This document shows positions 24,061 through 53,420 of a stretch of 64,000 bases of DNA, piece after piece (the stretch's first letter is position 1; the number at the start of each line of letters is the position of its first letter). This DNA is from Antedon mediterranea. Lineage: Eukaryota; Echinodermata; Crinoidea; Comatulida; Antedonidae. The DNA lies in assembly GCF_964355755.1 (NCBI RefSeq), contig NC_092678.1, positions 1,947,922-2,011,921 on the forward strand, in the 5' to 3' direction. The notes under the pieces are model-generated. The model saw only the letters and a program-made list of their open reading frames with translations. It was not told the origin of the DNA and made no database searches. A program made the position numbers and the translations under genes.

Positions 24061-24075
24061 TTTCAGAAAGAAAAT

Positions 24076-25446
24076 ATGAACTCTAAAAAAGAGAAGAGAG
24101 TAAGCAAAATAATCTTTTCAATTTTTAAACCCTAACACACAATATTTTGAAAATTACATATAACAGACTTAGCATAAACATTTAGGCTTAGATATAGTAT
24201 TTAAAATGTGTTTATAATTAAATACAATATAAATATTTTATTTTCGTTTTAGGAATGTCCTTTTTGCGGCAAAAATATTATAAACGTTTCCAGACACATA
24301 TCTGAAGTCCACAAAGATGTCGGTGAGAACGAAAGACGGGCCAGTCTGGCTCAATTAAGAAAAATGTGAGTAACAACCCAAAAAAGTCTGTAACATACTT
24401 TCTTGTGTTATTTTTAGCATTCAATAAATCTACCATTGCATTATTTATTCAAGTATTTGGTTTACTCGTACCCATTATTTGGCTTACCCGTACCCATTTT
24501 TGGCTTACTCGTACCCATTATTTGGCCTACTCGTACCCAATTTGAATAATTACTTCTAATGATTTGATCGGCGCAAAACATTATCGACCATGATGCTTTC
24601 TGTGTCGTATGCAATTTTCGATTTGGGGAGGTAACTTGATACATTTTTGGACCATGAAGAAAAAGGGAGAGGTCACATATCTAATATGTTTGTATGACGT
24701 CACAGTTCCCAGAGTGCTTTATGAATAAAAGTTACTCTCCATATTGATCTCGCATAGCTGGTGGTCGATTCATTTTGTTGCAACTAATAATTGCAACATT
24801 TTTATATTATATTTTAGAAAGAAAATAATATGAAATCAATCCGGCAAAACAGAGTAAGCACAATAATCTTTTCAATTCCTGTATCTATCCGCGAAGAAGT
24901 ACAGGAAAAGCTAAACAAGTTGCTAAAAGGTTATACAAAAAGGTGACAGCACCTACTGAGTGGGTCTTTAACATGGTGATCGCAAGAAAGCAAGATAAGC
25001 ACTCGATGAAATGTTGCAAGATTAAAACAAGGAAAACAACAATTTGATTTTTAGTGCCATAAATCAAGGGTATAAAACATACTATGTTTTGCAAAGAATA
25101 GTTTGTAGTAGTAGACAAACACATAAAGCGGAAAGATAAGGTAGGCCTATTGCCATTTTTAATACCAAGGGTATACAACGAATTTGCAAGTTTTCCAAAG
25201 AACAGTTTGTACGAGTAGACAAACTAAGGGTATAAAACATAAGGACTAAGCCACTGATTATTGTTTTTATGTAATAATGTGATTTTATTTTCTTTAACTT
25301 TTAGAAGAAACCCCACCAAGGGAAAACTGAAACAGTGCGACATCTGCGACATTGAATTTGTTCGTCTGGAAAGACATCAAAAACGCATGCACACGGTAGG
25401 CCTATATTGCAATGTTAAATACACTGTGCTCCAGTTTACCATTTAA
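24076..25446 (+). CDS. Candidate head gene: two short C2H2-like fingers (exons a, d, b)
   Basis: Proposed exons are 24,076-24,099 (ATG, within an exon starting at acceptor 24,066), 24,253-24,365 and 25,305 to a stop at 25,444-25,446. Phases agree: exon a ends in phase 0, exon d runs 0 to 2, and exon b takes two bases. The product would be 92 residues: a basic start (MNSKKEKR), finger 1 (ECPFCGKNIINVSRH, ISEVHK), a charged helix (ENERRASLAQLRK) and finger 2 (CDICDIEF, VRLERHQKRMHT). The tail is intronic read-through (VGLYCNVKYTVLQ). If the exon-b donor is used, the gene continues instead. Both fingers are C-X2-C-X9-H-X4-H, so zinc and possibly nucleic-acid binding are inferred. This is the only plus-strand place in the array region where exon d has an intact acceptor just after an exon a. 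Confidence 0.4.
24459..24541. repeat. Short tandem repeat in the intron (TACTCGTACCCATTATTTGGC)n
   Basis: About four imperfect 19-20-base units of GGCTTACTCGTACCCATT. They are absent from the homologous stretch of the L units, so the repeat arose or was inserted after that split. Confidence 0.75.
24695..24731 (+). promoter_or_regulatory. CRE plus TATA-like motif, present in every unit
   Basis: TGACGTCA (24,695-24,702, a perfect CREB/ATF-type palindrome) is followed 21 bases later by AATAAAAG (24,724-24,731). Exon a follows about 90 bases further on. The motif pair sits at offsets +86 and +115 in every unit, with no changes seen by eye. It would be a reasonable core promoter, but this is inference. 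Confidence 0.4.
24818..24853 (+). CDS. Exon a of unit U1 (start-codon exon), repeated in each unit
   Basis: Acceptor TTATATTATATTTTAG, then 36 bases reading KENNMKSIRQNR in phase 0, then donor GTAAGC. The ATG is at 24,830. The homologous head exon (24,067-24,099) reads KENMNSKKEKR. Copies lie at unit start +209. It can join in frame only to an exon starting in phase 0 (type d or e), not to the exon b that follows it in each unit. Confidence 0.4.
24829..25047 (+). CDS. Frame e of unit U1: 72-codon basic open frame overlapping exon a
   Basis: Open frame running through exon a's donor, reading INPAKQSKHNNLF, YPRRSTGKAKQVAKRLYKK, APTEWVFNMVIARK, KCCKIKTRKTTI and then TGA. It is strongly basic with no named domain. 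It has no ATG near its start. A TAA lies just upstream, so it could be used only as a 3' exon; in the diverged copy at 53,057 a clean acceptor (TTTTGTTTTAG) directly precedes the same frame. U9 and U11 carry an internal GAG-to-TAG change (37,318 and 40,673). The antisense strand is open too (97 codons); that frame has no supporting feature. Confidence 0.25.
   Translation, partial: YEINPAKQSKHNNLFNSCIYPRRSTGKAKQVAKRLYKKVTAPTEWVFNMVIARKQDKHSMKCCKIKTRKTTI
25305..25395 (+). CDS. Exon b of unit U1: short C2H2-like finger, present in all 14 units
   Basis: A 91-base exon with acceptor CTTTAACTTTTAG and donor CACACG|GTAGG. Encodes RNPTKGKLKQCDICDIEF then VRLERHQKRMHT. Copies start at 27,514, 28,661, 29,809, 32,017, 33,164, 34,312, 36,520, 37,667, 38,814, 41,022, 47,803, 50,011 and 52,219; U2-U13 read HKKRMH. 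Both Cys and both His are kept in every copy. U5 alone has PTKRKLK instead of PTKGKLK. It needs two preceding bases, which only exon d supplies. Confidence 0.55.
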
Positions 25447-25835
25447 AAAAAAATTCAGTATAAATACGGTAAACCAAAAACAAAAGCGACGCAGCGGTGA
25501 CTTGAAAAAAAAAGAAATTTAAAGTATAACGCCATCACACTCGCACGCCCTCGTGTGTTGTTGTTGCAGTGCGCCACCTAGCGCCCTATCGAGCGACATT
25601 GTTGTCGCCATGTGTTAGTTGGTTCTAGTAGGCTTAGTGTCGAAAAAACATACTATGTTTTGCAAAGAATAGTTTGTAGTAGTAGATAAACACATAAAGC
25701 AGAAAGATAAGGTAGGCCTATTGCCATTTTTAATACCAAGGGTATACAACGAATTTGCAAGTTTTGCTAAGCCACTGATTATTGTTTTTATGTAATAATG
25801 TGATTTTATTATTATTTTCTTTTTTTTTCTTTTAG

Positions 25836-25926
25836 AAGAAACCCAACCAAGGGAAAACCCAAAATGTGTGACATATGCAAAATTGAATATGTGCGTGTGG
25901 ATCGACATATAAAACGTATGCACACG
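25836..25926 (+). CDS. Exon c of unit U1: second short finger, in L units only
   Basis: A 91-base exon with acceptor TTTTTTTTCTTTTAG, donor CACACG|GTAGG and the same phase as exon b. Encodes KPKMCDICKIEYVRVDRH then IKRMHT. Other copies start at 30,340, 34,843, 39,345, 46,126, 48,334 and 50,542. Exons b and c cannot be joined to each other in frame (each starts with one base of a codon and ends at a codon boundary), so within one transcript they behave as alternatives after exon d. Finger ligands are intact in all copies. Confidence 0.5.
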
Positions 25927-26218
25927 GTAGGCCTATATTGCAATGTTAAATACACTGTGGTCGAGTTTACCATTTTTTTTATAAAATTCAGTATAAATAC
26001 GGTAAACCAAAAACAAAAGCGACGCAGCGGTGACTTGAAAAAAAAAGAAATTTAAAGTATAACGCCATCACACTCGCACGCCCTCGTGTGTTGTTGTTGC
26101 AGTGCGCCACCTTGCGCCCTATGTTTTGAATATTACATCAGACTTAGCATAAACATATAGGTTTAATATCTAAAATGTGTTTATAATTAAATACATAAAT
26201 ATTTCATTTTTGTTTTTG

Positions 26219-26329
26219 TGTCCTTTTTGCGAGACACGCATAGTAAATGTGTCCCGCCATATAAACACAATACACAACGAAAAAACGGACAAAGAAAGAA
26301 GGGCCAGTCTGGCGAAACTAAAAAAGAAG
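26219..26329 (+). pseudogene. Exon d of unit U1: finger exon whose acceptor is lost
   Basis: Homologous to the intact exons at 24,253 and 17,292 and keeps CPFCETRIVNVSRH, INTIH, ERRASLAKLKK and the GTGAGT donor. The upstream TTTTAGGAA has become TTTTTGTG, so the AG acceptor and the Glu codon are gone. The same loss is present in every L unit (U1, U4, U7, U10, U11, U12, U13), so it preceded amplification. The nearest downstream AG would delete the first Cys pair. Because exon d alone supplies the phase needed by exons b and c, its loss would prevent in-frame finger proteins inside the array. Confidence 0.6.
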
Positions 26330-26546
26330 TGAGTAACACACCAAAAAAGGAAAATCTGTAACATACTTTCTTGTATTATTTTAGCATTTAATAAATCTAC
26401 CATTGCATTACTTGGATACAAGTGAAGAAGACACACTATTTATTTTCATTGCACCAGAACGCTGCTTTATAATGTAGGCCTAATTAAAGGGACATATATA
26501 ATGAAAATAACTTTTTTAATGACCACTGTCATTACAAAATCGTAAA

Positions 26547-26789
26547 ATGAACTTGCAGGATTTTACTTGGGCAAGGCAATCAGCTTTAATAGCAAACCCA
26601 CTTTCCCAACTCCTGGGACAAGTGTTTTTTTTCAGTCAAACAAACACATTTGACGTATTCTCTTGTCCCATAACAAGCGCTTTTAAAATAAGAAAAATTG
26701 TAACAGCACAAAAAACCATGCGGCAACACACATTGTTAAAATACGAAGCTTCTTCAAAGCACATTAAAACCAGTGCATTTCATCACTGA
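26547..26789 (+). CDS. Hypothetical 80-codon frame in L units
   Basis: An ATG-initiated frame reading MNLQDFTWARQSALIANPL, then FDVFSCPITSAFKIRK and MRQHTLLKYEASSKHIK, ending TGA. Copies start at 31,050, 35,553, 40,055, 46,836, 49,044 and 51,252. It matches the minus-strand frame at 16,667-16,948. No domain is recognised. A candidate only because two diverged copies keep overlapping frames. Confidence 0.25.
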   Translation: MNLQDFTWARQSALIANPLSQLLGQVFFFSQTNTFDVFSCPITSAFKIRKIVTAQKTMRQHTLLKYEASSKHIKTSAFHH

Positions 26790-26817
26790 AGGCAAAAATC
26801 ACTTATGTCATTAGATT

Positions 26818-29800
26818 ATGCAATTTTCGATTTGGGGAGGTAACTTGATACATTTTTGGACCATGAAGAAAAAGGGAGATGTCACATATCTAATATGTTT
26901 GTATGACGTCACAGTTCCCAGAGTGCTTTATGAATAAAAGTTACTCTCCATATTGATCTCGCATAGCTGGTGGTCGATTCATTTTGTTGCAACTAATAAT
27001 TGCAACATTTTTATATTATATTTTAGAAAGAAAATAATATGAAATCAATCCGGCAAAACAGAGTAAGCACAATAATCTTTTCAATTCCTGTATCTATCCG
27101 CGAAGAAGTACGGGAAAAGCTAAACAAGTTGCTAAAAGGTTATACAAAAAGGTGACAGCACCTACTGAGTGGGTCTTTAACATGGTGATCGCAAGAAAGC
27201 GAGATAAGCACTCGATGAAATGTTGCAAGATTAAAACAAGGAAAACAACAATTTGATTTTTAGTGCCATAAATCAAGGGTATAAAACATACTATGTTTTG
27301 CAAAGAATAGTTTGTAGTAGTAGCCAAACACATAAAGCGGAAAGATAAGGTAGGCCTATTGCCATTTTTAATACCAAGGGTATACAACGAATTTGCAAGT
27401 TTTCCAAAGAACAGTTTGTACGAGTAGACAAACTAAGGGTATAAAACATAAGGACTAAGCCACTGATTATTGTTTTTATGTAATAATGTGATTTTATTTT
27501 CTTTAACTTTTAGAAGAAACCCCACCAAGGGAAAACTGAAACAGTGCGACATCTGCGACATTGAATTTGTTCGTCTGGAAAGACATAAAAAACGCATGCA
27601 CACGGTAGGCCTATATTGCAATGTTAAATACACTGTGCTCCAGTTTACCATTTAAAAAAAAATTCAGTATAAATACGGTAAACCAAAAACAAAAGCGACG
27701 CAGCGGTGACTTGAAAAAAAAAGAAATTTAAAGTATAACGCCATCACACTCGCACGCCCTCGTGTGTTGTTGTTGCAGTGCGCCACCTTGCGCCCTATCG
27801 AGCGACATTGTTGTCGCCATGTGTTAGTTGGTTCTAGTAGGCTTAGTGTCGAAAAAACATACTATGTTTTGCAAAGAATAGTTTGTAGTAGTAGATAAAC
27901 ACATAAAGCAGAAAGATAAGGTAGGCCTATTGCCATTTTTAATACCAAGGGTATACAACGAATTATGCAATTTTCGATTTGGGGAGGTAACTTGATACAT
28001 TTTTGGACCATGAAGAAAAAGGGAGATGTCACATATCTAATATGTTTGTATGACGTCACAGTTCCCAGAGTGCTTTATGAATAAAAGTTACTCTCCATAT
28101 TGATCTCGCATAGCTGGTGGTCGATTCATTTTGTTGCAACTAATAATTGCAACATTTTTATATTATATTTTAGAAAGAAAATAATATGAAATCAATCCGG
28201 CAAAACAGAGTAAGCACAATAATCTTTTCAATTCCTGTATCTATCCGCGAAGAAGTACGGGAAAAGCTAAACAAGTTGCTAAAAGGTTATACAAAAAGGT
28301 GACAGCACCTACTGAGTGGGTCTTTAACATGGTGATCGCAAGAAAGCGAGATAAGCACTCGATGAAATGTTGCAAGATTAAAACAAGGAAAACAACAATT
28401 TGATTTTTAGTGCCATAAATCAAGGGTATAAAACATACTATGTTTTGCAAAGAATAGTTTGTAGTAGTAGACAAACACATAAAGCGGAAAGATAAGGTAG
28501 GCCTATTGCCATTTTTAATACCAAGGGTATACAACGAATTTGCAAGTTTTCCAAAGAACAGTTTGTACGAGTAGACAAACTAAGGGTATAAAACATAAGG
28601 ACTAAGCCACTGATTATTGTTTTTATGTAATAATGTGATTTTATTTTCTTTAACTTTTAGAAGAAACCCCACCAAGGGAAAACTGAAACAGTGCGACATC
28701 TGCGACATTGAATTTGTTCGTCTGGAAAGACATAAAAAACGCATGCACACGGTAGGCCTATATTGCAATGTTAAATACACTGTGCTCCAGTTTACCATTT
28801 AAAAAAAAATTCAGTATAAATACGGTAAACCAAAAACAAAAGCGACGCAGCGGTGACTTGAAAAAAAAAAGAAATTTAAAGTATAACGCCATCACACTCG
28901 CACGCCCTCGTGTGTTGTTGTTGCAGTGCGCCACCTTGCGCCCTATCGAGCGACATTGTTGTCGCCATGTGTTAGTTGGTTCTAGTAGGCTTAGTGTCGA
29001 AAAAACATACTATGTTTTGCAAAGAATAGTTTGTAGTAGTAGATAAACACATAAAGCAGAAAGATAAGGTAGGCCTATTGCCATTTTTAATACCAAGGGT
29101 ATACAACGAATTATGCAATTTTCGATTTGGGGAGGTAACTTGATACATTTTTGGACCATGAAGAAAAAGGGAGATGTCACATATCTAATATGTTTGTATG
29201 ACGTCACAGTTCCCAGAGTGCTTTATGAATAAAAGTTACTCTCCATATTGATCTCGCATAGCTGGTGGTCGATTCATTTTGTTGCAACTAATAATTGCAA
29301 CATTTTTATATTATATTTTAGAAAGAAAATAATATGAAATCAATCCGGCAAAACAGAGTAAGCACAATAATCTTTTCAATTCCTGTATCTATCCGCGAAG
29401 AAGTACGGGAAAAGCTAAACAAGTTGCTAAAAGGTTATACAAAAAGGTGACAGCACCTACTGAGTGGGTCTTTAACATGGTGATCGCAAGAAAGCGAGAT
29501 AAGCACTCGATGAAATGTTGCAAGATTAAAACAAGGAAAACAACAATTTGATTTTTAGTGCCATAAATCAAGGGTATAAAACATACTATGTTTTGCAAAG
29601 AATAGTTTGTAGTAGTAGACAAACACAGAAAGCGGAAAGATAAGGTAGGCCTATTGCCATTTTTAATACCAAGGGTATACAACGAATTTGCAAGTTTTCC
29701 AAAGAACAGTTTGTACGAGTAGACAAACTAAGGGTATAAAACATAAGGACTAAGCCACTGATTATTGTTTTTATGTAATAATGTGATTTTATTTTCTTTA

Positions 29801-31320
29801 ACTTTTAGAAGAAACCCCACCAAGGGAAAACTGAAACAGTGCGACATCTGCGACATTGAATTTGTTCGTCTGGAAAGACATAAAAAACGCATGCACACGG
29901 TAGGCCTATATTGCAATGTTAAATACACTGTGCTCCAGTTTACCATTTAAAAAAAAATTCAGTATAAATACGGTAAACCAAAAACAAAAGCGACGCAGCG
30001 GTGACTTGAAAAAAAAAGAAATTTAAAGTATAACGCCATCACACTCGCACGCCCTCGTGTGTTGTTGTTGCAGTGCGCCACCTTGCGCCCTATCGAGCGA
30101 CATTGTTGTCGCCATGTGTTAGTTGGTTCTAGTAGGCTTAGTGTCGAAAAAACATACTATGTTTTGCAAAGAATAGTTTGTAGTAGTAGATAAACACATA
30201 AAGCAGAAAGATAAGGTAGGCCTATTGCCATTTTTAATACCAAGGGTATACAACGAATTTGCAAGTTTTGCTAAGCCACTGATTATTGTTTTTATGTAAT
30301 AATGTGATTTTATTATTATTTTCTTTTTTTTTCTTTTAGAAGAAACCCAACCAAGGGAAAACCCAAAATGTGTGACATATGCAAAATTGAATATGTGCGT
30401 GTGGATCGACATATAAAACGTATGCACACGGTAGGCCTATATTGCAATGTTAAATACACTGTGGTCGAGTTTACCATTTTTTTATAAAATTCAGTATAAA
30501 TACGGTAAACCAAAAACAAAAGCGACGCAGCGGTGACTTGAAAAAAAAAGAAATTTAAAGTATAACGCCATCACACTCGCACGCCCTCGTGTGTTGTTGT
30601 TGCAGTGCGCCACCTTGCGCCCTATGTTTTGAATATTACATCAGACTTAGCATAAACATATAGGTTTAATATCTAAAATGTGTTTATAATTAAATACATA
30701 AATATTTCATTTTTGTTTTTGTGTCCTTTTTGCGAGACACGCATAGTAAATGTGTCCCGCCATATAAACACAATACACAACGAAAAAACGGACAAAGAAA
30801 GAAGGGCCAGTCTGGCGAAACTAAAAAAGAAGTGAGTAACACACCAAAAAAGGAAAATCTGTAACATACTTTCTTGTATTATTTTAGCATTTAATAAATC
30901 TACCATTGCATTACTTGGATACAAGTGAAGAAGACACACTATTTATTTTCATTGCACCAGAACGCTGCTTTATAATGTAGGCCTAATTAAAGGGACATAT
31001 ATAATGAAAATAACTTTTTTAATGACCGCTGTCATTACAAAATCGTAAAATGAACTTGCAGGATTTTACTTGGGCAAGGCAATCAGCTTTAATAGCAAAC
31101 CCACTTTCCCAACTCCTGGGACAAGTGTTTTTTTTCAGTCAAACAAACACATTTGACGTATTCTCTTGTCCCATAACAAGCGCTTTTAAAATAAGAAAAA
31201 TTGTAACAGCACAAAAAACCATGCGGCAACACACATTGTTAAAATACGAAGCTTCTTCAAAGCACATTAAAACCAGTGCATTTCATCACTGAAGGCAAAA
31301 ATCACTTATGTCATTAGATT
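26818..31320 (+). repeat. Higher-order repeat 1 (S-S-L, 4,503 bp)
   Basis: Units U2-U3-U4. Position-specific variants mark the register: U2 has AGCCAAACAC (27,323), U3 has a ten-A run (about 28,861) giving 1,148 bp, and U4 has ACACAGAAAGCGG (29,620). Confidence 0.9.
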
Positions 31321-34300
31321 ATGCAATTTTCGATTTGGGGAGGTAACTTGATACATTTTTGGACCATGAAGAAAAAGGGAGATGTCACATATCTAATATG
31401 TTTGTATGACGTCACAGTTCCCAGAGTGCTTTATGAATAAAAGTTACTCTCCATATTGATCTCGCATAGCTGGTGGTCGATTCATTTTGTTGCAACTAAT
31501 AATTGCAACATTTTTATATTATATTTTAGAAAGAAAATAATATGAAATCAATCCGGCAAAACAGAGTAAGCACAATAATCTTTTCAATTCCTGTATCTAT
31601 CCGCGAAGAAGTACGGGAAAAGCTAAACAAGTTGCTAAAAGGTTATACAAAAAGGTGACGGCACCTACTGAGTGGGTCTTTAACATGGTGATCGCAAGAA
31701 AGCGAGATAAGCACTCGATGAAATGTTGCAAGATTAAAACAAGGAAAACAACAATTTGATTTTTAGTGCCATAAATCAAGGGTATAAAACATACTATGTT
31801 TTGCAAAGAATAGTTTGTAGTAGTAGCCAAACACATAAAGCGGAAAGATAAGGTAGGCCTATTGCCATTTTTAATACCAAGGGTATACAACGAATTTGCA
31901 AGTTTTCCAAAGAACAGTTTGTACGAGTAGACAAACTAAGGGTATAAAACATAAGGACTAAGCCACTGATTATTGTTTTTATGTAATAATGTGATTTTAT
32001 TTTCTTTAACTTTTAGAAGAAACCCCACCAAGAGAAAATTGAAACAGTGCGACATCTGCGACATTGAATTTGTTCGTCTGGAAAGACATAAAAAACGCAT
32101 GCACACGGTAGGCCTATATTGCAATGTTAAATACACTGTGCTCCAGTTTACCATTTAAAAAAAAATTCAGTATAAATACGGTAAACCAAAAACAAAAGCG
32201 ACGCAGCGGTGACTTGAAAAAAAAAGAAATTTAAAGTATAACGCCATCACACTCGCACGCCCTCGTGTGTTGTTGTTGCAGTGCGCCACCTTGCGCCCTA
32301 TCGAGCGACATTGTTGTCGCCATGTGTTAGTTGGTTCTAGTAGGCTTAGTGTCGAAAAAACATACTATGTTTTGCAAAGAATAGTTTGTAGTAGTAGATA
32401 AACACATAAAGCAGAAAGATAAGGTAGGCCTATTGCCATTTTTAATACCAAGGGTATACAACGAATTATGCAATTTTCGATTTGGGGAGGTAACTTGATA
32501 CATTTTTGGACCATGAAGAAAAAGGGAGATGTCACATATCTAATATGTTTGTATGACGTCACAGTTCCCAGAGTGCTTTATGAATAAAAGTTACTCTCCA
32601 TATTGATCTCGCATAGCTGGTGGTCGATTCATTTTGTTGCAACTAATAATTGCAACATTTTTATATTATATTTTAGAAAGAAAATAATATGAAATCAATC
32701 CGGCAAAACAGAGTAAGCACAATAATCTTTTCAATTCCTGTATCTATCCGCGAAGAAGTACGGGAAAAGCTAAACAAGTTGCTAAAAGGTTATACAAAAA
32801 GGTGACAGCACCTACTGAGTGGGTCTTTAACATGGTGATCGCAAGAAAGCGAGATAAGCACTCGATGAAATGTTGCAAGATTAAAACAAGGAAAACAACA
32901 ATTTGATTTTTAGTGCTATAAATCAAGGGTATAAAACATACTATGTTTTGCAAAGAATAGTTTGTAGTAGTAGACAAACACATAAAGCGGAAAGATAAGG
33001 TAGGCCTATTGCCATTTTTAATACCAAGGGTATACAACGAATTTGCAAGTTTTCCAAAGAACAGTTTGTACGAGTAGACAAACTAAGGGTATAAAACATA
33101 AGGACTAAGCCACTGATTATTGTTTTTATGTAATAATGTGATTTTATTTTCTTTAACTTTTAGAAGAAACCCCACCAAGGGAAAACTGAAACAGTGCGAC
33201 ATCTGCGACATTGAATTTGTTCGTCTGGAAAGACATAAAAAACGCATGCACACGGTAGGCCTATATTGCAATGTTAAATACACTGTGCTCCAGTTTACCA
33301 TTTAAAAAAAAATTCAGTATAAATACGGTAAACCAAAAACAAAAGCGACGCAGCGGTGACTTGAAAAAAAAAAGAAATTTAAAGTATAACGCCATCACAC
33401 TCGCACGCCCTCGTGTGTTGTTGTTGCAGTGCGCCACCTTGCGCCCTATCGAGCGACATTGTTGTCGCCATGTGTTAGTTGGTTCTAGTAGGCTTAGTGT
33501 CGAAAAAACATACTATGTTTTGCAAAGAATAGTTTGTAGTAGTAGATAAACACATAAAGCAGAAAGATAAGGTAGGCCTATTGCCATTTTTAATACCAAG
33601 GGTATACAACGAATTATGCAATTTTCGATTTGGGGAGGTAACTTGATACATTTTTGGACCATGAAGAAAAAGGGAGATGTCACATATCTAATATGTTTGT
33701 ATGACGTCACAGTTCCCAGAGTGCTTTATGAATAAAAGTTACTCTCCATATTGATCTCGCATAGCTGGTGGTCGATTCATTTTGTTGCAACTAATAATTG
33801 CAACATTTTTATATTATATTTTAGAAAGAAAATAATATGAAATCAATCCGGCAAAACAGAGTAAGCACAATAATCTTTTCAATTCCTGTATCTATCCGCG
33901 AAGAAGTACGGGAAAAGCTAAACAAGTTGCTAAAAGGTTATACAAAAAGGTGACAGCACCTACTGAGTGGGTCTTTAACATGGTGATCGCAAGAAAGCGA
34001 GATAAGCACTCGATGAAATGTTGCAAGATTAAAACAAGGAAAACAACAATTTGATTTTTAGTGCCATAAATCAAGGGTATAAAACATACTATGTTTTGCA
34101 AAGAATAGTTTGTAGTAGTAGACAAACACAGAAAGCGGAAAGATAAGGTAGGCCTATTGCCATTTTTAATACCAAGGGTATACAACGAATTTGCAAGTTT
34201 TCCAAAGAACAGTTTGTACGAGTAGACAAACTAAGGGTATAAAACATAAGGACTAAGCCACTGATTATTGTTTTTATGTAATAATGTGATTTTATTTTCT

Positions 34301-35823: not shown

Positions 35824-38800
35824 ATGCAATTTTCGATTTGGGGAGGTAACTTGATACATTTTTGGACCATGAAGAAAAAGGGAGATGTCACATATCTAAT
35901 ATGTTTGTATGACGTCACAGTTCCCAGAGTGCTTTATGAATAAAAGTTACTCTCCATATTGATCTCGCATAGCTGGTGGTCGATTCATTTTGTTGCAACT
36001 AATAATTGCAACATTTTTATATTATATTTTAGAAAGAAAATAATATGAAATCAATCCGGCAAAACAGAGTAAGCACAATAATCTTTTCAATTCCTGTATC
36101 TATCCGCGAAGAAGTACGGGAAAAGCTAAACAAGTTGCTAAAAGGTTATACAAAAAGGTGACGGCACCTACTGAGTGGGTCTTTAACATGGTGATCGCAA
36201 GAAAGCGAGATAAGCACTCGATGAAATGTTGCAAGATTAAAACAAGGAAAACAACAATTTGATTTTTAGTGCCATAAATCAAGGGTATAAAACATACTAT
36301 GTTTTGCAAAGAATAGTTTGTAGTAGTAGCCAAACACATAAAGCGGAAAGATAAGGTAGGCCTATTGCCATTTTTAATACCAAGGGTATACAACGAATTT
36401 GCAAGTTTTCCAAAGAACAGTTTGTACGAGTAGACAAACTAAGGGTATAAAACATAAGGACTAAGCCACTGATTATTGTTTTTATGTAATAATGTGATTT
36501 TATTTTCTTTAACTTTTAGAAGAAACCCCACCAAGGGAAAATTGAAACAGTGCGACATCTGCGACATTGAATTTGTTCGTCTGGAAAGACATAAAAAACG
36601 CATGCACACGGTAGGCCTATATTGCAATGTTAAATACACTGTGCTCCAGTTTACCATTTAAAAAAAAATTCAGTATAAATACGGTAAACCAAAAACAAAA
36701 GCGACGCAGCGGTGACTTGAAAAAAAAAGAAATTTAAAGTATAACGCCATCACACTCGCACGCCCTCGTGTGTTGTTGTTGCAGTGCGCCACCTTGCGCC
36801 CTATCGAGCGACATTGTTGTCGCCATGTGTTAGTTGGTTCTAGTAGGCTTAGTGTCGAAAAAACATACTATGTTTTGCAAAGAATAGTTTGTAGTAGTAG
36901 ATAAACACATAAAGCAGAAAGATAAGGTAGGCCTATTGCCATTTTTAATACCAAGGGTATACAACGAATTATGCAATTTTCGATTTGGGGAGGTAACTTG
37001 ATACATTTTTGGACCATGAAGAAAAAGGGAGATGTCACATATCTAATATGTTTGTATGACGTCACAGTTCCCAGAGTGCTTTATGAATAAAAGTTACTCT
37101 CCATATTGATCTCGCATAGCTGGTGGTCGATTCATTTTGTTGCAACTAATAATTGCAACATTTTTATATTATATTTTAGAAAGAAAATAATATGAAATCA
37201 ATCCGGCAAAACAGAGTAAGCACAATAATCTTTTCAATTCCTGTATCTATCCGCGAAGAAGTACGGGAAAAGCTAAACAAGTTGCTAAAAGGTTATACAA
37301 AAAGGTGACAGCACCTACTTAGTGGGTCTTTAACATGGTGATCGCAAGAAAGCGAGATAAGCACTCGATGAAATGTTGCAAGATTAAAACAAGGAAAACA
37401 ACAATTTGATTTTTAGTGCCATAAATCAAGGGTATAAAACATACTATGTTTTGCAAAGAATAGTTTGTAGTAGTAGACAAACACATAAAGCGGAAAGATA
37501 AGGTAGGCCTATTGCCATTTTTAATACCAAGGGTATACAACGAATTTGCAAGTTTTCCAAAGAACAGTTTGTACGAGTAGACAAACTAAGGGTATAAAAC
37601 ATAAGGACTAAGCCACTGATTATTGTTTTTATGTAATAATGTGATTTTATTTTCTTTAACTTTTAGAAGAAACCCCACCAAGGGAAAACTGAAACAGTGC
37701 GACATCTGCGACATTGAATTTGTTCGTCTGGAAAGACATAAAAAACGCATGCACACGGTAGGCCTATATTGCAATGTTAAATACACTGTGCTCCAGTTTA
37801 CCATTTAAAAAAAAATTCAGTATAAATACGGTAAACCAAAAACAAAAGCGACGCAGCGGTGACTTGAAAAAAAAAGAAATTTAAAGTATAACGCCATCAC
37901 ACTCGCACGCCCTCGTGTGTTGTTGTTGCAGTGCGCCACCTTGCGCCCTATCGAGCGACATTGTTGTCGCCATGTGTTAGTTGGTTCTAGTAGGCTTAGT
38001 GTCGAAAAAACATACTATGTTTTGCAAAGAATAGTTTGTAGTAGTAGATAAACACATAAAGCAGAAAGATAAGGTAGGCCTATTGCCATTTTTAATACCA
38101 AGGGTATACAACGAATTATGCAATTTTCGATTTGGGGAGGTAACTTGATACATTTTTGGACCATGAAGAAAAAGGGAGATGTCACATATCTAATATGTTT
38201 GTATGACGTCACAGTTCCCAGAGTGCTTTATGAATAAAAGTTACTCTCCATATTGATCTCGCATAGCTGGTGGTCGATTCATTTTGTTGCAACTAATAAT
38301 TGCAACATTTTTATATTATATTTTAGAAAGAAAATAATATGAAATCAATCCGGCAAAACAGAGTAAGCACAATAATCTTTTCAATTCCTGTATCTATCCG
38401 CGAAGAAGTACGGGAAAAGCTAAACAAGTTGCTAAAAGGTTATACAAAAAGGTGACAGCACCTACTGAGTGGGTCTTTAACATGGTGATCGCAAGAAAGC
38501 GAGATAAGCACTCGATGAAATGTTGCAAGATTAAAACAAGGAAAACAACAATTTGATTTTTAGTGCCATAAATCAAGGGTATAAAACATACTATGTTTTG
38601 CAAAGAATAGTTTGTAGTAGTAGACAAACACATAAAGCGGAAAGATAAGGTAGGCCTATTGCCATTTTTAATACCAAGGGTATACAACGAATTTGCAAGT
38701 TTTCCAAAGAACAGTTTGTACGAGTAGACAAACTAAGGGTATAAAACATAAGGACTAAGCCACTGATTATTGTTTTTATGTAATAATGTGATTTTATTTT

Positions 38801-40325
38801 CTTTAACTTTTAGAAGAAACCCCACCAAGGGAAAACTGAAACAGTGCGACATCTGCGACATTGAATTTGTTCGTCTGGAAAGACATAAAAAACGCATGCA
38901 CACGGTAGGCCTATATTGCAATGTTAAATACACTGTGCTCCAGTTTACCATTTAAAAAAAAATTCAGTATAAATACGGTAAACCAAAAACAAAAGCGACG
39001 CAGCGGTGACTTGAAAAAAAAAGAAATTTAAAGTATAACGCCATCACACTCGCACGCCCTCGTGTGTTGTTGTTGCAGTGCGCCACCTTGCGCCCTATCG
39101 AGCGACATTGTTTTCGCCATGTGTTAGTTGGTTCTAGTAGGCTTAGTGTCGAAAAAACATACTATGTTTTGCAAAGAATAGTTTGTAGTAGTAGATAAAC
39201 ACATAAAGCAGAAAGATAAGGTAGGCCTATTGCCATTTTTAATACCAAGGGTATACAACGAATTTGCAAGTTTTGCTAAGCCACTGATTATTGTTTTTAT
39301 GTAATAATGTGATTTTATTATTATTTTCTTTTTTTTTCTTTTAGAAGAAACCCAACCAAGGGAAAACCCAAAATGTGTGACATATGCAAAATTGAATATG
39401 TGCGTGTGGATCGACATATAAAACGTATGCACACGGTAGGCCTATATTGCAATGTTAAATACACTGTGGTCGAGTTTACCATTTTTTTATAAAATTCAGT
39501 ATAAATACGGTAAACCAAAAACAAAAGCGACGCAGCGGTGACTTGAAAAAAAAAGAAATTTAAAGTATAACGCCATCACACTCGCACGCCCTCGTGTGTT
39601 GTTGTTGCAGTGCGCCACCTTGCGCCCTATGTTTTGAATATTACATCAGACTTAGCATAAACATATAGGTTTAATATCTAAAATGTGTTTATAATTAAAT
39701 ACATAAATATTTCATTTTTGTTTTTGTGTCCTTTTTGCGAGACACGCATAGTAAATGTGTCCCGCCATATAAACACAATACACAACGAAAAAACGGACAA
39801 AGAAAGAAGGGCCAGTCTGGCGAAACTAAAAAAGAAGTGAGTAACACACCAAAAAAGGAAAATCTGTAACATACTTTCTTGTATTATTTTAGCATTTAAT
39901 AAATCTACCATTGCATTACTTGGATACAAGTGAAGAAGACACACTATTTATTTTCATTGCACCAGAACGCTGCTTTATAATGTAGGCCTAATTAAAGGGA
40001 CATATATAATGAAAATAACTTTTTTAATGACCACTGTCATTACAAAATCGTAAAATGAACTTGCAGGATTTTACTTGGGCAAGGCAATCAGCTTTAATAG
40101 CAAACCCACTTTCCCAACTCCTGGGACAAGTGTTTTTTTTCAGTCAAACAAACACATTTGACGTATTCTCTTGTCCCATAACAAGCGCTTTTAAAATAAG
40201 AAAAATTGTAACAGCACAAAAAACCATGCGGCAACACACATTGTTAAAATACGAAGCTTCTTCAAAGCACATTAAAACCAGTGCATTTCATCACTGAAGG
40301 CAAAAATCACTTATGTCATTAGATT
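35824..40325 (+). repeat. Higher-order repeat 3 (S-S-L, 4,502 bp)
   Basis: Units U8-U9-U10. U8 shares GTGACGGCACC and GAAAATTGAAAC with U5. U9 lacks the extra A and has the TAG change seen again in U11. U10 lacks the ACACAGAAAG variant of U4/U7. So this repeat is partly re-homogenised. Confidence 0.9.
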
Positions 40326-41409
40326 ATGCAATTTTCGATTTGGGGAGGTAACTTGATACATTTTTGGACCATGAAGAAAAAGGGAGATGTCACATATCTA
40401 ATATGTTTGTATGACGTCACAGTTCCCAGAGTGCTTTATGAATAAAAGTTACTCTCCATATTGATCTCGCATAGCTGGTGGTCGATTCATTTTGTTGCAA
40501 CTAATAATTGCAACATTTTTATATTATATTTTAGAAAGAAAATAATATGAAATCAATCCGGCAAAACAGAGTAAGCACAATAATCTTTTCAATTCCTGTA
40601 TCTATCCGCGAAGAAGTACGGGAAAAGCTAAACAAGTTGCTAAAAGGTTATACAAAAAGGTGACAGCACCTACTTAGTGGGTCTTTAACATGGTGATCGC
40701 AAGAAAGCGAGATAAGCACTCGATGAAATGTTGCAAGATTAAAACAAGGAAAACAACAATTTGATTTTTAGTGCCATAAATCAAGGGTATAAAACATACT
40801 ATGTTTTGCAAAGAATAGTTTGTAGTAGTAGACAAACACATAAAGCGGAAAGATAAGGTAGGCCTATTGCCATTTTTAATACCAAGGGTATACAACGAAT
40901 TTGCAAGTTTTCCAAAGAACAGTTTGTACGAGTAGACAAACTAAGGGTATAAAACATAAGGACTAAGCCACTGATTATTGTTTTTATGTAATAATGTGAT
41001 TTTATTTTCTTTAACTTTTAGAAGAAACCCCACCAAGGGAAAACTGAAACAGTGCGACATCTGCGACATTGAATTTGTTCGTCTGGAAAGACATAAAAAA
41101 CGCATGCACACGGTAGGCCTATATTGCAATGTTAAATACACTGTGCTCCAGTTTACCATTTAAAAAAAAATTCAGTATAAATACGGTAAACCAAAAACAA
41201 AAGCGACGCAGCGGTGACTTGAAAAAAAAAGAAATTTAAAGTATAACGCCATCACACTCGCACGCCCTCGTGTGTTGTTGTTGCAGTGCGCCACCTTGCG
41301 CCCTATCGAGCGACATTGTTTTCGCCATGTGTTAGTTGGTTCTAGTAGGCTTAGTGTCGAAAAAACATACTATGTTTTGCAAAGAATAGTTTGTAGTAGT
41401 AGATAAACA

Positions 41410-41476
41410 TGTAGAGGCAATTTGCATATGTGTTAGCAGGTGTAACAGTATAGTGGGTAAGTTGGATCTCACTAAA
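41410..41476 (+). mobile_element. 5' LTR, internally deleted (67 bp)
   Basis: Begins TGTAGAGGCAATTTGCATAT and ends GGATCTCACTAAA like the 3' LTR, but jumps directly from GGTGTAAC to AGTATAGTGGG. It lacks about 234 bp present at 45,715-45,950. The missing piece holds the TATA-like promoter region (TGTATATAATTAC), so this LTR probably cannot drive transcription. Confidence 0.85.
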
Positions 41477-41477
41477 G

Positions 41478-41495
41478 TGGTGACCCCGACGTGAT
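41478..41495 (+). promoter_or_regulatory. Primer-binding site complementary to tRNA-Trp
   Basis: TGGTGACCCCGACGTGAT is one base downstream of the LTR end and is the exact complement of the 3' 18 bases (including CCA) of animal tRNA-Trp (...ATCACGTCGGGGTCACCA). Confidence 0.85.
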
Positions 41496-41576
41496 CTAAC
41501 GAGAGTGCTTGGAATATTTAAATATTTTTTCTTCGTCGTTGTTGCAAGATTACTTTGAGTTGTCGTTGTTTGATAC

Positions 41577-42440
41577 GTGAATGGAATTATGGCAAGACCT
41601 TCTCCGGGAAGAGCTACACCGATCAAAATGGCCGCTAGAATGGATGAGGCACCACCTGTGGCGGCTGCTGTAAGTTTAAAATTGCCGCCATTTTGGCCGA
41701 ATGACCCACTTATTTGGTTTGCGCAAGTGGAGGCTCAGTTTGTTACCAGAGGAATTACGGCTGAGGAAACAAAGTATTCGTATATAATTGCTTCTTTGCC
41801 GCCTAATATCGCACAGGAGGTTCGGGATTTATTGCTAAGCCCTCCATACCAGAGGCCATATACCCATTTGAAATCGGAATTGGTTAAAAGGACATCCGTG
41901 TCGGAGCAAAAGCGTCTTCATCAGTTGTTAACAACGGAAGAATTAGGTGATCGCAAGCCTAGTCAGTTACTACGCAAGATGTACCAATTGCTGGGGGATC
42001 GTGATTTAGAGACATCCATCCTGAAACAGTTGTTTGTGCAAAGATTGCCTACTAATGTTCAATTGATATTAGCGTCCACCCGTGAGGATATGGACCTTTC
42101 AGATCTGGCAGCGTTGGCCGATAAAATTTTGGAAGTTTCTCCACCACCACCTACTATTGCCACGACAATTAAGGATACAGGTGCACGCGCAACGTCAGAC
42201 GAATTACGAGAATTGAGAGCTGAAGTTAATAAGCTGACTAGCCTCGTTTCTTCCTTGGCGAAACAAGTCAGAGGCAGAAGCCGTAGTAAACAACGTGAAA
42301 GCCGAAAACGCTCGCCCTCTGCTACATCTAATGATGGTTTATGCTGGTATCATCATCGATATGGTAACAAGGCACATAAATGTAATTCACCATGCTCTTT
42401 TTCCTCACAGAAGGCGGGAAACGACCAAGCCAGCGACTAG
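41577..42440 (+). CDS. gag: Gag protein with CHCC zinc motif
   Basis: 287 codons ending at TAG 42,438-42,440. A second ATG at 41,589 (MARPSPGR) is an alternative start. The capsid-like region begins [20 protein letters not shown] (about residues 36-55). It continues with the helical block of Ty3/gypsy Gag proteins to about residue 195. A basic linker ([15 protein letters not shown]) follows, then a zinc motif with C256, H260, C269 and C273. This CHCC arrangement replaces the usual CCHC knuckle and is typical of the CsRn1 group. Gag forms the particle and binds element RNA. Its last 49 bases overlap the pol frame. The frame is intact. Confidence 0.92.
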
Positions 42441-42460
42441 AGACGGCGACAGCTGCTGGC
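42416..42460 (+). promoter_or_regulatory. Programmed -1 ribosomal frameshift site between gag and pol
   Basis: The heptamer G-GGA-AAC (42,416-42,422) is in the gag frame exactly as required for X-XXY-YYZ tandem slippage. A six-base spacer follows, then inverted GCCAGC (42,429-42,434) and GCTGGC (42,455-42,460), which can form a stem just inside the optimal distance. The gag stop lies in the loop. Slipping by -1 enters the pol frame. Confidence 0.8.
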
Positions 42461-45400
42461 GTTGGTGAAGGTAGTCGTCTATTTTTTATTTCTGATCGTA
42501 CTTCGGGACTTAGATTCTTAGTTGACACTGGAGCGGAGGTTAGCGTGTTACCTCCATCAATAACAGACAAGTTGCACCGAAAAACTGACTTTGTATTGCA
42601 AGCAGTAAACAAATCTACAATATCTACTTATGGGGAGCGTTCCTTAACAGTTGATTTTGGATTTCGACGCACGTATAGGTGGATATTTACTGTTGCTGAT
42701 GTGCCTAATGCGATTATTGGGGCCGACTTTTTACGACGTTTTGGTTTAATTGTGGACTTAAAAAATCGCAAACTTTTCGATGCTACTACTAGTATCAGTG
42801 TCAAGGGAATAGAATGTACCCTAGCATCACTTAGTCCGGTCTTTCCGACCCCAAAAGTAAATCCTCGTTTTCAGGAAATATTAAACAAATATAAAACGAT
42901 TACCAAACCATGTTTTCGTAATGGAAGCGTGAAACATAACGTTACACATCAGATAAATACAAATGGGTTGCCAGTTTGTGCCAGACCTCGCCGATTGTCT
43001 TCTGAGAAATTGAAAATTGCACGGGCTGAATTTGATCATATGTTACAATTAGGAATTATACGGCCCTCGGATAGTAACTGGTCGTCGCCGCTACACATGG
43101 TGCCTAAAGGAACAACAGGTGATTGGAGGCCATGTGGGGACTACCGAGCGTTAAATAATGTGACTGTTCCAGATATGTACCCCATCCCTCACATTCATGA
43201 CTTTACCGCAACTCTCTCGGGTTGCAAGATTTTTTCTAAGATAGATTTGGTACGTGCATATCATCAAATACCCGTCGATCCTAAAGACATTTCAAAAACC
43301 GCTATTACTACGCCGTTTGGCATGTTCGAGTTCTTAAGAATGCCATTTGGTCTTCGAAATGCGGCACAGTCATTTCAGCGCTTTATTGACCAGGTGTTGC
43401 AGGGTATGAATTTCGTGTATGCTTACATTGATGACTTACTTATTGCCAGCATGGATACTGCTGAACATGAATTGCATCTTCAGGCACTTTTTAAACGTCT
43501 CGATGAATTTGGTATCATTGTTAATCCGTCCAAGTGTGTATGGGGTGTGTCTTCACTGCAATTTTTAGGTCATCAAATTAACGAGTTTGGGATACAGCCA
43601 TTGCGTTCCAAGGTTGAGGCGATTGAACAGTTTCCAGTACCAGATACTGTGCGTAAATTACGTGAGTTTCTGGGATTAATTAATTTCTACAGACGGTTTA
43701 TACCTAGATGTTCGGATTTGATTCATCCATTAACTGATTTACTTGTCGGTAAACCTAAAAAGGCGATTGAACTATCTCCGACGGAAATTGAATCGTTCAA
43801 CAAGGTCAAGTATGCACTCGTCGAATCAACTCTTCTAGAACATCCACATCCTGACGCTGCATTGTGTTTAATGGTAGATGCGTCCAATTGCGCTGTAGGT
43901 GGTGTGTTGCAACAAATGGTAGCAGGGATTTGGCATCCACTTGCATTTTTTTCCCGACGTCTAAATCCGGTGGAAAGGAGATATAGTACTTTTGGACGGG
44001 AATTACTAGCTACCTATCTTGCAGTTAAGCATTTTCGCCACGTTCTAGAAGCTAGAACATTTTATATCTTAACTGACCATAAACCTTTAACACACGCATT
44101 ACGTTCCAGCGCAGATCGATATTCGCCGCGAGAGATACGTCACTTAGACTACGTCTCACAGTTTACCACGGACATTCGACACGTCAAGGGTAGCGAGAAT
44201 ACCGTAGCAGACGCACTGTCACGTATGGACTTGAATGCAGTGTCAGCTTCATCGGAGCTTTCTATTGATTATGACGTCATGGCTAGGCACCAGCAAAAAG
44301 ATGCGGAGTTGCTCGAACATCAGCATAAGTCTGTTTTCAAGTTGAGAGACGTACCGATAGCGACTAGCGGCGGTACTATTGTATGCGATGTCACCACTGG
44401 TAATCATAGACCGTTCGTGCCCAAAGGTATGCGTAGGTTAGTGTTTGACTCTTTGCATTCACTTTCTCATCCAGGGATTCGAGCTTCACTAAAATTAATC
44501 GCTTCACGGTATGTTTGGCCTGGTATGAACAGTGATGTGCGGACATGGGCTAAGTGTTGTTTAAAATGCCAGAGGAATAAGGTTCATCGCCACACTGTGA
44601 CACCATTAGGTACGTTTGCGACGCCCGACATAAGATTCGACCACGTCCACATAGACTTGGTAGGACCTCTACCTGTATCGGATGGTTATACTTACCTACT
44701 TACATGTATCGATCGCTTTACAAGATGGCCAGAGGCCATATCAATCACCAATATTACCGCTGAAACTGTAGCCAAAGCGTTTGTCACTGTTTGGGTATCC
44801 AGATTCGGTGCGCCATCCACCATCACTACAGACCGTGGTCGTCAGTTCGAATCGGCACTATTCACCGCCCTATCTAACATGTTGGGCACAAAACGCATTC
44901 GAACAACATCTTACCATCCTATGTCAAATGGATTAGTTGAACGTTTTCACCGCCAATTAAAGGTTTCGCTTAAGGCTCAAGATGATCCTCAGAAGTGGAG
45001 TGAAACTTTACCTTTAGTTCTTCTGGGTCTCCGGACAGCGGTCAAAGTTGATTTAGGCTGTTCTTCATCGGAACTGGTGTATGGAGCAACCCTGAAACTT
45101 CCAGGGCAGTTTGTCGCGCCTACTGATATCGCCTCACATGAGCCTGCGAATTACGTACATAGATTGCAAAGACAGATGCAGAATATTCGACCAGTGCCAA
45201 CACGAGCGAATCAACGCACCGCACAAATCCACGACGATTTGCGTGAATGTACTCACGTGTTTGTTCGTTGCGATAGCGTAAAGAAACCTCTTCAGTCTCC
45301 TTACAATGGGCCATTTAAAGTTTTAAACAGAACTGACAAATACTTTGTTTTGAGCATCGCAGGTAAACATGAAACTGTTAGTTTGGACAGACTAAAAGTC

Positions 45401-45574
45401 GCCTATGTAAATAATGGTAAAGCTATTAACAACTTTCCAGAATCGTCAAGGCAACCGGAAGCAGGGCTTTCCCCAACCGCAAGTGCTATTCCAGTCGCAC
45501 CTCCGCCACGGCAAACGCGTAGCGGACGACATGTACACTGGCCACGTAAGCTTGCAGATTATGATTGCGGTTGA
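42423..45574 (+). CDS. pol: Pol polyprotein: protease, RT, RNase H, integrase
   Basis: Expressed by -1 frameshifting from gag; the open frame reaches back to 42,392 (1,060 codons from there, numbering used here). The aspartic protease has DTGA at 45-48. The RT palm includes [13 protein letters not shown] (281-293), [12 protein letters not shown] and YIDD at 345-348. RNase H has D496, E537, D562 and D607. The integrase has an H689/H693-C723/C726 zinc-binding domain and a catalytic D755-X58-D814-X35-E850 triad. A GPF/chromodomain-like segment follows ([16 protein letters not shown]) before TGA at 45,572-45,574. All catalytic residues are present and no stop interrupts the frame, so the enzyme set looks recently active. 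Host silencing or the deleted 5' LTR may now block it. Confidence 0.95.
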
Positions 45575-45662
45575 AGAAATTCTGTTAGTTTATTGTGCTG
45601 GAAGTTTTATACTAGAATCATTTTTTTTTTTATTCATCGCTCGCTAACATTTCATTTGCGAT

Positions 45663-45677
45663 CTAGAGGGGAGCTGA
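45663..45677 (+). promoter_or_regulatory. Polypurine tract
   Basis: CTAGAGGGGAGCTGA directly precedes the TG of the 3' LTR, where plus-strand DNA synthesis would be primed. Confidence 0.7.
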
Positions 45678-45978
45678 TGTAGAGGCAATTTGCATATGTG
45701 TTAGCAGGTGTAACGAACGGCATGCAAACCTTTTTATCCTTTGTCTCTCTCTCTCAACTACCGACCGTCGAACAAGCAGGACGTATTTATTTTACTTATC
45801 GTTGTTTGGTAACACAAGGAACTTTGCGTATCCTGTACATGTACAGAAGAAACCATTATTATTGGAATATATTATGTGTATATAATTACGGAGCCAAGTA
45901 TAAGAAGTTACTAATGATATTTGAACCCAATGCATGCTCTCACAACACAGTATAGTGGGTAAGTTGGATCTCACTAAA
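45678..45978 (+). mobile_element. 3' LTR, full length (301 bp)
   Basis: Starts TGTAGAGGCAATTTGCATAT and ends GGATCTCACTAAA. Contains a TATA-like TGTATATAATTAC. Its outer parts are identical to the shortened 5' LTR, so the element is young. Confidence 0.88.
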
Positions 45979-51900: not shown

Positions 51901-52218
51901 AAAGCGAGATAAGCACTCGATGAAATGTTGCAAGATTAAAACAAGGAAAACAACAATTTGATTTTTAGTGCCATAAATCAAGGGTATAAAACATACTATG
52001 TTTTGCAAAGAATAGTTTGTAGTAGTAGACAAACACATAAAGCGGAAAGATAAGGTAGGCCTATTGCCATTTTTAATACCAAGGGTATACAACGAATTTG
52101 CAAGTTTTCCAAAGAACAGTTTGTACGAGTAGACAAACTAAGGGTATAAAACATAAGGACTAAGCCACTGATTATTGTTTTTATGTAATAATGTGATTTT
52201 ATTTTCTTTAACTTTTAG

Positions 52219-52309
52219 AAGAAACCCAAACAAGGGAAAACTTCAAATTTGTGCGATATGCAAAATTGAATATGTGCGTCTGGAAAGACATATACAACGT
52301 ATGCACATG
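52219..52309 (+). CDS. Last exon b of the array (unit U14), diverged finger
   Basis: A 91-base exon with intact acceptor and donor (CACATG|GTAGG). Encodes KLQICAICKIEYVRLERH then IQRMHM. All four zinc ligands are kept despite several substitutions, some of them exon-c-like (KIEYVR). Repeat identity with other units ends just after this exon, at about 52,350. Confidence 0.5.
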
Positions 52310-52409
52310 GTAGGCCTATATTGCAATGTTAAATACACTGTGCTCCAGTGGACTAAAACAGAAAATAGAGCAAAACAACAAAAGAGAGAGTACCAATTTT
52401 GTGGGACAA

Positions 52410-52918: not shown

Positions 52919-53035
52919 GAGTGCCCTTTTTGCGGGACCATAATTATAAATGTGTCCCGCCATATAAAAGACGTCCACAATGAAAAAACGGACAACGAAA
53001 GAAGGGCCAGTCTGACCAAACTAAATACAATATAA
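52919..53035 (+). CDS. Exon d with intact acceptor but read-through stop (possible terminal exon)
   Basis: Acceptor TTTTTGTTTTAG, then ECPFCGTIIINVSRH, IKDVHNEKTDNERRASL, TKLNTI and TAA at 53,033-53,035. The usual GTGAGT donor is deleted, so the frame ends within about 117 bases. It starts in phase 0, and the preceding exon b (52,219-52,309) ends in phase 0, so the two could be joined in frame as the 3' end of a gene. A partial, acceptor-less relative lies just upstream (52,820-52,890). Confidence 0.4.
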   Translation, partial: ECPFCGTIIINVSRHIKDVHNEKTDNERRASLTKLNTI

Positions 53036-53056
53036 ATATTTTATTTTTGTTTTAGG

Positions 53057-53170
53057 AAATCAATCCGGCAAAACAGAGTAAGCACAATAATCTTTTCCAT
53101 TCCTGTATCTATCCGCGAAGAAGTACGGGAAAAGCTAAACAAGTTGCTAAAAGGTTATACAAAAGGTGAC
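53057..53170 (+). pseudogene. Diverged copy of frame e, truncated by a one-base deletion
   Basis: TTTTGTTTTAG is followed by GAAATCAATCCGGC and the e frame (INPAKQSKHNNLF...). A missing A in TACAAAAGG brings TGA after VAKRLYKR. It is useful because it shows a splice acceptor directly before this frame. Confidence 0.4.
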
Positions 53171-53332
53171 AGCACCTACTGAGTGGGTCTTTAAAAACCA
53201 TAAAAGATAAGGTAGGCCTATTGCCATTTTTAATACCAAGGGTATAAAACGAATTTGCAAGTAGACAAACTAAGGGTATAAAACATAAGGACTAAGCCAC
53301 TGATTATTGTTTTTATTTTCTTTAACTTTTAG

Positions 53333-53420
53333 AAGAAACCCAACCAAGGGACAACAGAAACAGTGCGACATATGCAAAGTTGAATATGTGCGTGTGGAAA
53401 GACTACGACATATGGACACG
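53333..53420 (+). pseudogene. Degenerate finger exon, one codon deleted
   Basis: 88 bases between acceptor TTTAACTTTTAG and GGACACG|GTAGG. Encodes QCDICKVEYVRVERLRHMDT. The codon loss and changes remove the normal His-X4-His spacing, so it is probably non-functional. Confidence 0.5.

Follow-up and report, generated by a model that had tools for sequence, protein, structure and literature searches.

Results

Structure and content of the array

The window analyzed here, a stretch of 64,000 nucleotides (nt) from the crinoid Antedon mediterranea (C9:1947922-2011921, in a 354-Mb assembly of 18 contigs that also served as the searched genome), contains a tandem array built of zinc-finger exons and, on the opposite strand, exons of a small zinc-finger gene. 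Self-comparison of the window places the array on the plus strand at 24608-52349 and resolves it into 13 full units and 1 partial unit. An earlier note on this DNA had proposed that long (L, ~2208 bp) and short (S, ~1147 bp) units are ordered L-(SSL)x3-L-L-L-partial, and both the self-comparison and an alignment of the units bear this out. Units U1 to U5 start at 24610, 26819, 27966, 29114, and 31322; U6 to U10 at 32469, 33617, 35825, 36972, and 38119; and U11 to U14 at 40327, 47108, 49316, and 51524. From U1 to U7 the lengths are 2209, 1147, 1148, 2208, 1147, 1148, and 2208 bp, followed by 1147, 1147, and 2208 bp for U8 to U10, 2208 bp each for U12 and U13, and 826 bp for the partial U14. The first SSL block (U2 S, U3 S, U4 L; 26819-31321, 4503 bp) is succeeded by a second starting at 31322 and a third running from 35825 to 40326. 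An S unit equals an L unit minus 1,061 bp, and both ends of this deletion carry ATT, a 3-bp match. The length of U11, 6781 bp, is that of a 2208-bp unit plus a 4573-bp insert that includes a target duplication. The inserted long terminal repeat (LTR) element (41410-45977, plus strand; 4.57 kb) has reverse transcriptase, RNase H, and integrase domains in an order that suggests a gypsy-type element; it is flanked by the 5-bp target duplication AAACA, and its 5' LTR is shorter than its 3' LTR.

Every full unit carries one copy of finger exon A (13 copies; 25305-25395 in U1), which is 91 nt long, runs from phase 2 to phase 0, and encodes CX2CX9HX4H. Exon B (25836-25926), a diverged duplicate of A, occurs once per L unit (7 copies), as does a copy of exon C (26217-26328) that keeps its ligands and has lost its acceptor AG in all 7 L units. 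The short exon D (24818-24853; 36 nt, phase 0 to 0) is present once in each of the 14 units, the partial one included. Unit positions 48-190 (24657-24799) are shared with a dispersed repeat, and the L unit also holds a repeat of ~116 bp that is found on other contigs too. The S unit retains exon D, exon A, and the 116-bp repeat and lacks B and C. The partial U14 carries exon A* (52219-52309), a mostly B-like exon within A-type flanks. Another short stretch of the L unit, judged by eye, may be a decayed reverse transcriptase fragment.

The unit is made of zinc-finger exon DNA, as the earlier note had claimed. All 21 A-type exons (13 A, 7 B, and A*) have AG and GT ends, an open frame, and intact ligands, and almost all array A and B exons have one of two sequences. 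Since the array copies are so young, this intactness is not independent evidence of use. Classical C2H2 fingers are spaced CX2-4CX12HX3-5H, a spacing absent from the array finger, and exon A alone (30 amino acids) scored below the Pfam cut-offs for zf-C2H2_4 (15 bits versus 27) and zf-C2H2 (12.4 versus 25.2).

Higher-order pattern

Across the 13 full units, 18 alignment columns vary outside the stretch missing from S, 1 of them at the S deletion join. The register variants proposed previously are present among the units: AGCCAAACAC in U2, U5, and U8 corresponds to C at column 505; the A-run variant of U3 and U6 is an extra A at column 895 that is absent from U9; and ACACAGAAAGCGG in U4 and U7 corresponds to G at column 514, absent from U10. 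The spacings between repeated 20-mers agree with the proposed period of ~4,503 bp, as only the unit lengths of 2208, 1147, and 1148 bp are more frequent than 4503 bp, and the block recurs three times in tandem. An (SSL)x3 run occurs in only 5 of the 1716 orderings of seven L and six S units, and when the six S units are divided three and three, the division by register has the fewest differences (12, the next having 16) among the 10 possible ones. The variants of U4 and U7 are missing from U10, which agrees with U11 and U12 at column 995; an exchange with the L-L-L end of the array could account for this.

Over the part common to S and L, units differ by a mean of 0.30% (78 pairs; U14 was excluded from all unit distances). 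The difference is 0.165% between same-register units from separate SSL blocks and 0.309% between units within one block (9 pairs each, 1079-1080 columns per pair). In alpha satellites and NBPF repeats, block copies are described as ~10 times more alike than the monomers within a block (available text of PMC9584774), a ratio that the present array does not approach. Because of these two values, the higher-order pattern is real yet shallow.

A genome-wide search took in two unit parts (525 and 627 bp). Matches covering most of these parts were found only at C9:1.97-2.00 Mb, and elsewhere the searched DNA occurred as short pieces only, among the 40 of 49 and 40 of 46 candidates that were scored, so that the counts are lower bounds. 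No array at any other locus was thus detected with these unit parts.

Host gene, splice phases, and flanking copies

The sole protein match to the exons of the locus is P0001, an 'uncharacterized protein [Antedon mediterranea]' of 137 amino acids, which maps exon by exon onto the minus strand of the window (18155-18045, 17292-17182, 14501-14412, 13880-13857, 8959-8936, and 8329-8288) and is identical to it except at exon-join residues and the last three residues, which are unplaced. The corresponding exons, all on the minus strand, are exon 1' (YYTEIQ...YRKS; 18045-18200), inside which P0001 residues 1-37 begin; exon C (17180-17292); exon A (14412-14502); two TTTPATSE exons (13880-13857 and 8959-8936); and an exon encoding EKRRPINVVHPYY (8286-8329). 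A further exon, X, lies on the minus strand at C9:2013185-2013323 (window coordinate 65.3 kb, 1.3 kb past the window end), and X and the P0001 exons would form one gene. The array, on the plus strand, is therefore antisense to its host gene and sits between X at 65.3 kb and exon 1' at 18.2 kb. At 13 sites in the array, the opposite strand matches 14277-14573 with 95.6-96.6% identity. Host exon A matches U1 A at 91 of 91 nt while their flanks differ by 6%, which may point to a recent exchange between host and array.

P0001 was the only protein found at E values up to 1 in the protein searches (130 and 35 candidates), with no relatives in other species. Among solved structures, Rad50 was matched weakly in two cases (E = 0.17 and 0.32), which were taken as chance. 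Another minus-strand feature is an open reading frame at 3321-3851 in which Pfam recognizes a BEN domain (26.6 bits against a cut-off of 23.2; E = 7.1e-6), and a direct duplication (14140-15413 and 19217-20466; 91.5%) includes an A-type exon and a minisatellite bearing CATCCGTCAGGGCAC.

Exon D runs from phase 0 to 0, C from 0 to 2, and A from 2 to 0. A C-A join is consistent with P0001, and the order X-D-C with a spliced copy on contig C3 described below. In contrast, A-A, A-B, C-D-A, and A-D-A joins hit stops, so that exons of successive units cannot be joined in frame as in NBPF or the kringle IV-2 (KIV-2) repeats of LPA. Nor does the array run in the direction of its gene, as those repeats do. 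What is found matches mutually exclusive exons in being homologous, 91 nt long, and of phase 2 to 0, with two in a row breaking the frame.

Left of the array are older copies of exon D (D24; 24067-24099, 33 nt) and exon C (C24; 24253-24365), the latter with intact splice sites and an exon that differs by 34.5% from host C. Right of it lie older, partly decayed C, D', and A-type copies (52919-53766). All are on the plus strand, as is an exon-like stretch of 51 nt at 59384-59434 (NTTTTPASSLPKTVDAT; AG and GT ends, phase 0 to 0), which is in frame after any array A exon and includes TTTPASS (59390-59410). D24 and C24 lie upstream on the strand of the array and could serve as shared exons; downstream, the only candidate is this exon-like stretch, in the right phase. 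No clear DNA similarity was detected between its surroundings and the host TTTPATSE exons (best match 22 bases, E = 0.008), and a search of the window plus 30 kb on each side for plus-strand counterparts of X, exon 1', the TTTPATSE exons, and the last exon gave weak pieces only. The stretch belongs to a 258-bp tandem duplicate (59051-59566) with Thr-rich exon-like pieces, of which 59384-59434 is the second, and the first lacks a donor. Nearby are a coding 27-bp repeat (ELKDHEQSN; 54356-54745, minus strand; 5.1 copies, 100% matches) and an open reading frame of 598 amino acids (56969-58765, plus strand) that, by its look, may encode a Penelope-type reverse transcriptase; a Pfam scan of this frame gave no significant match.

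A spliced copy on contig C3

At C3:5.267-5.271 Mb, X, D, and C are joined without introns; next come 42 counted copies of a 24-bp ETNTPASS repeat and then the last exon, EKKRRPINVVHPYY. The X-D and D-C joins fall at splice sites seen in C9, as does the join to the last exon, with one base changed, and X is up to 93.6% identical to its C9 counterpart. Because the joins fall at C9 splice sites without introns, a spliced X-D-C...last message must have existed formerly. A pattern search found exon D on the plus strand only, and X is on the minus strand of C9, so the D-C-array stretch may have been inverted, or it may be an inverted duplicate of which the minus-strand D was lost. Conceivably, X and D-C were instead joined across strands by trans-splicing. 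A stretch that extends the C3 copy matches window coordinates -13439 to -13333 but was rejected as an exon, as it includes intron-side bases there.

The C3 copy (C3:5266001-5276000, here L028; positions 780-5360) is itself a second tandem array from the same gene, with unit spacings of 206 and 234/235 bp and with seven whole C copies and seven others that end in NLNN and a stop. Its 3' side, from L028:549 downward, is a dispersed repeat with at least 49 further matches (40 of 75 candidates scored). Another repeat, up to 96% identical, is common to window positions 9892-11900 and L028 positions 8109-10000.

Divergence of exons and introns

When A-type copies were compared pairwise with 60 and 40 bp of flank, the exon had changed more than the flanks at p < 0.05 in 14 of 28 pairs, the reverse held in 1, and neither in 13; the same sequences recur in several pairs, which makes these non-independent. 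Among the six C-type pairs, 2 showed an exon excess, 1 neither, and 3 the reverse, all of these involving the rearranged 52.9-kb copy. In the 28-pair comparison A* was set one base upstream and the 53.3-kb copy slightly off; the following longer-flank figures use corrected positions. Host C (C_P) and C_24 differ at 39/113 exon and 9/195 flank positions, array C (C_arr) and C_24 at 38/112 and 12/159, host A (A_P) and copy A3 at 33/91 and 9/209 (mostly one side), A and B at 16/91 and 10/279, and A and A* at 19/91 and 1/728. The excess is slight, absent, or contrary for C_arr versus C_P (exon 15/112, flanks 41/558), A_P versus U1 A (0/91, 11/185), exon D (10/33, 27/75), copy A2 versus A (16/89, 15/66) and versus A* (17/89, 15/66), and A* versus B (12/91, 19/78). 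Likewise, the tested non-finger exons are without excess over introns: exon 1' and its paralogue at C9:5.82 Mb differ at 9/153 exon and 72/294 flank positions (the far 5' flank being unrelated and the near flanks ~6% different), and the two TTTPATSE exons at 1/24 and 35/375.

When the most divergent segment was chosen by the data, it fell at 18-125 (exon 1-113), 16-77 (1-112), 9-82 (1-91), and 10-90 (1-91), and for A versus B at -12 to 145, reaching beyond the exon; these five segments exceeded 60 shuffles. For C_arr versus C_P, no divergent segment went beyond what 60 shuffles gave. Of the 16 sites that distinguish A from B, A* follows B at 11 and A at 4, and it can be explained by a single crossover at the exon start.

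Plain positive selection on the fingers was rejected, as all scored pairs that had more than 1-2 changes showed a nonsynonymous divergence (dN) below the synonymous divergence (dS) (A* rows, being out of frame, were ignored; array C was given a borrowed first codon, and its rows rest on the other codons). Among distinct C copies exon dS was 0.35-2.3, the highest values approaching saturation, and among distinct A types it was 0.56-1.05, in both cases exceeding the intron divergence of ~4-8%. Because dN stays below dS, the finger exons look old and once useful, and the introns look recently made alike. Both homogenization of introns with exons protected and replacement of exons fit this pattern.

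Discussion

We consider it probable that the locus holds a recent, local, non-coding tandem array of a 2.2-kb cassette derived from a small two-finger zinc-finger gene. The events that we would infer are as follows: a finger exon would have been duplicated within the cassette (A to A+B) and exon C would have lost its acceptor, after which unequal exchange would have amplified the cassette, the loss of 1,061 bp between ends sharing 3 bp would have turned L into S, the S-S-L block would have been multiplied to three copies, and the LTR element would have landed in U11. The array most likely makes no protein, because A-A, A-B, or D-A joins break the frame and exon C is without an acceptor. Its finger exons would then be intact through youth and origin from working exons, not through per-copy use.

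Several observations weigh against this reading. D24-C24 followed by any single A or B exon stays open on the plus strand, the exon-like stretch at 59384-59434 continues the D24-C24-A frame, and the intactness of all A-type exons is what a working exon bank would also show. Furthermore, X is assigned to the P0001 gene on the basis of the C3 copy, which includes D, and D was found on the plus strand only by the pattern search.

Some weight therefore goes to a bank of mutually exclusive exons, in which plus-strand D24-C24 would pick one of ~20 A/B exons and continue to 59384-59434, although we regard it as unlikely. It would account for the open D24-C24-A and D24-C24-B joins next to the stops in A-A and A-B, for an open D24-C24-A-59384 join with AG and GT ends, and for intact ends, frame, and ligands throughout. 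However, the exons have nearly all one of two sequences, so that choice would add little; the plus strand offers no convincing X, exon 1', or last exon; and the surroundings of 59384 do not clearly resemble the host TTTPATSE exons. A slightly less favored idea, also unlikely, is that the locus diversifies its fingers by whole-exon exchange with limits at or close to splice sites and the introns kept alike, through either selection against exon conversion or copying from spliced complementary DNA; given fingers on both strands and the joining of X (minus) to D-C (now plus) in the C3 copy, it could even be a trans-spliced bank like mod(mdg4), with the array as a spilled-over cassette.

Less probable again is a source of antisense or double-stranded RNA acting on the host gene, where 13 inverted copies of exon A plus intron would pair with host exon A in one transcript. 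Such a source would fit the identity of 14277-14573 to the opposite strand of the array and, should X be the first exon, the position of the array 5' of the host exons. Local duplication alone, however, yields inverted copies with no function needed. An assembly artefact in copy number is quite improbable: units that are ~99.7% alike are hard to assemble, but the window is without any N, and the LTR insertion together with U1-specific and register-specific variants provides internal landmarks. Even more doubtful is an expanding many-finger gene or gene family. The finger exons do keep their ligands, but 91-nt exons in tandem shift the frame, which led us to reject a many-finger protein, C has no acceptor in any L unit, and the orientation is opposite to that of the sole protein found. 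Finally, the comparison with centromeric higher-order satellites drawn in the earlier note is not upheld, and a centromeric or pericentromeric array is extremely improbable, as despite nested periodicity with register variants, block copies are only ~2 times as alike as the monomers within a block, the searched unit parts occur at length at one locus, and the array is situated 1.97 Mb into a 26-Mb contig.

Among the papers listed by literature searches, none was on this locus. Among known systems, NBPF repeats run in the direction of their own gene and encode protein, the KIV-2 copies of LPA are near-identical, like the units here, and Drosophila mod(mdg4) has zinc-finger exons on both strands. 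The closest kin of the array are such exon-bearing tandem repeats as NBPF and LPA KIV-2, from which it differs in being antisense, out of frame between units, and shallow. As far as the available text of the source describes it, the human NBPF (Olduvai) 3mer consists of 1.6-kb exon-bearing monomers in a ~4.8-kb block, in tandem inside the gene (PMC9584774), and resembles the present block of three exon-bearing units and 4.5 kb; in NBPF20, monomers of one block differ by ~18% and those of separate blocks by 1.6%, compared with 0.31% and 0.165% here. LPA KIV-2, described in the portion available as protein-coding with 5.6 kb per unit and 1-40 units (PMC11462820), likewise is an exon-bearing tandem unit of a few kb, but it is coding, whereas the exons of successive array units cannot join in frame.

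For the contrast between exons and introns, two parallels may apply, each as given in the available part of its source. In spider silk MaSp2 genes, repetitive introns are homogenized (PMC9779670), similar to the within-gene introns kept near-identical by exchange between copies here, but there the coding repeats are homogenized too, whereas several finger exons are far apart. In the snake three-finger toxin genes subject to ASSET, paralogues likewise have highly similar introns and very different exon segments (PMC2474615); there, segments inside toxin exons switch, whereas here most of the finger exon differs, with dN below dS. As in mod(mdg4), both strands of the locus carry zinc-finger exons close to shared exons. 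Trans-splicing is established in that system, according to the available text (PMC12692577), whereas here only the C3 copy points that way, and its joining of X to D-C is accounted for equally well by an inversion or an inverted duplication.

Taken alone, the array is an ordinary outcome of unequal exchange. It has been caught, however, beside its source gene and older relics, and with a spliced copy elsewhere that is itself a tandem array of two unit classes. The excess divergence of the finger exons offers a small, testable case of separate exon and intron histories. If our reading is right, a satellite-like array can arise from a working exon very rapidly.

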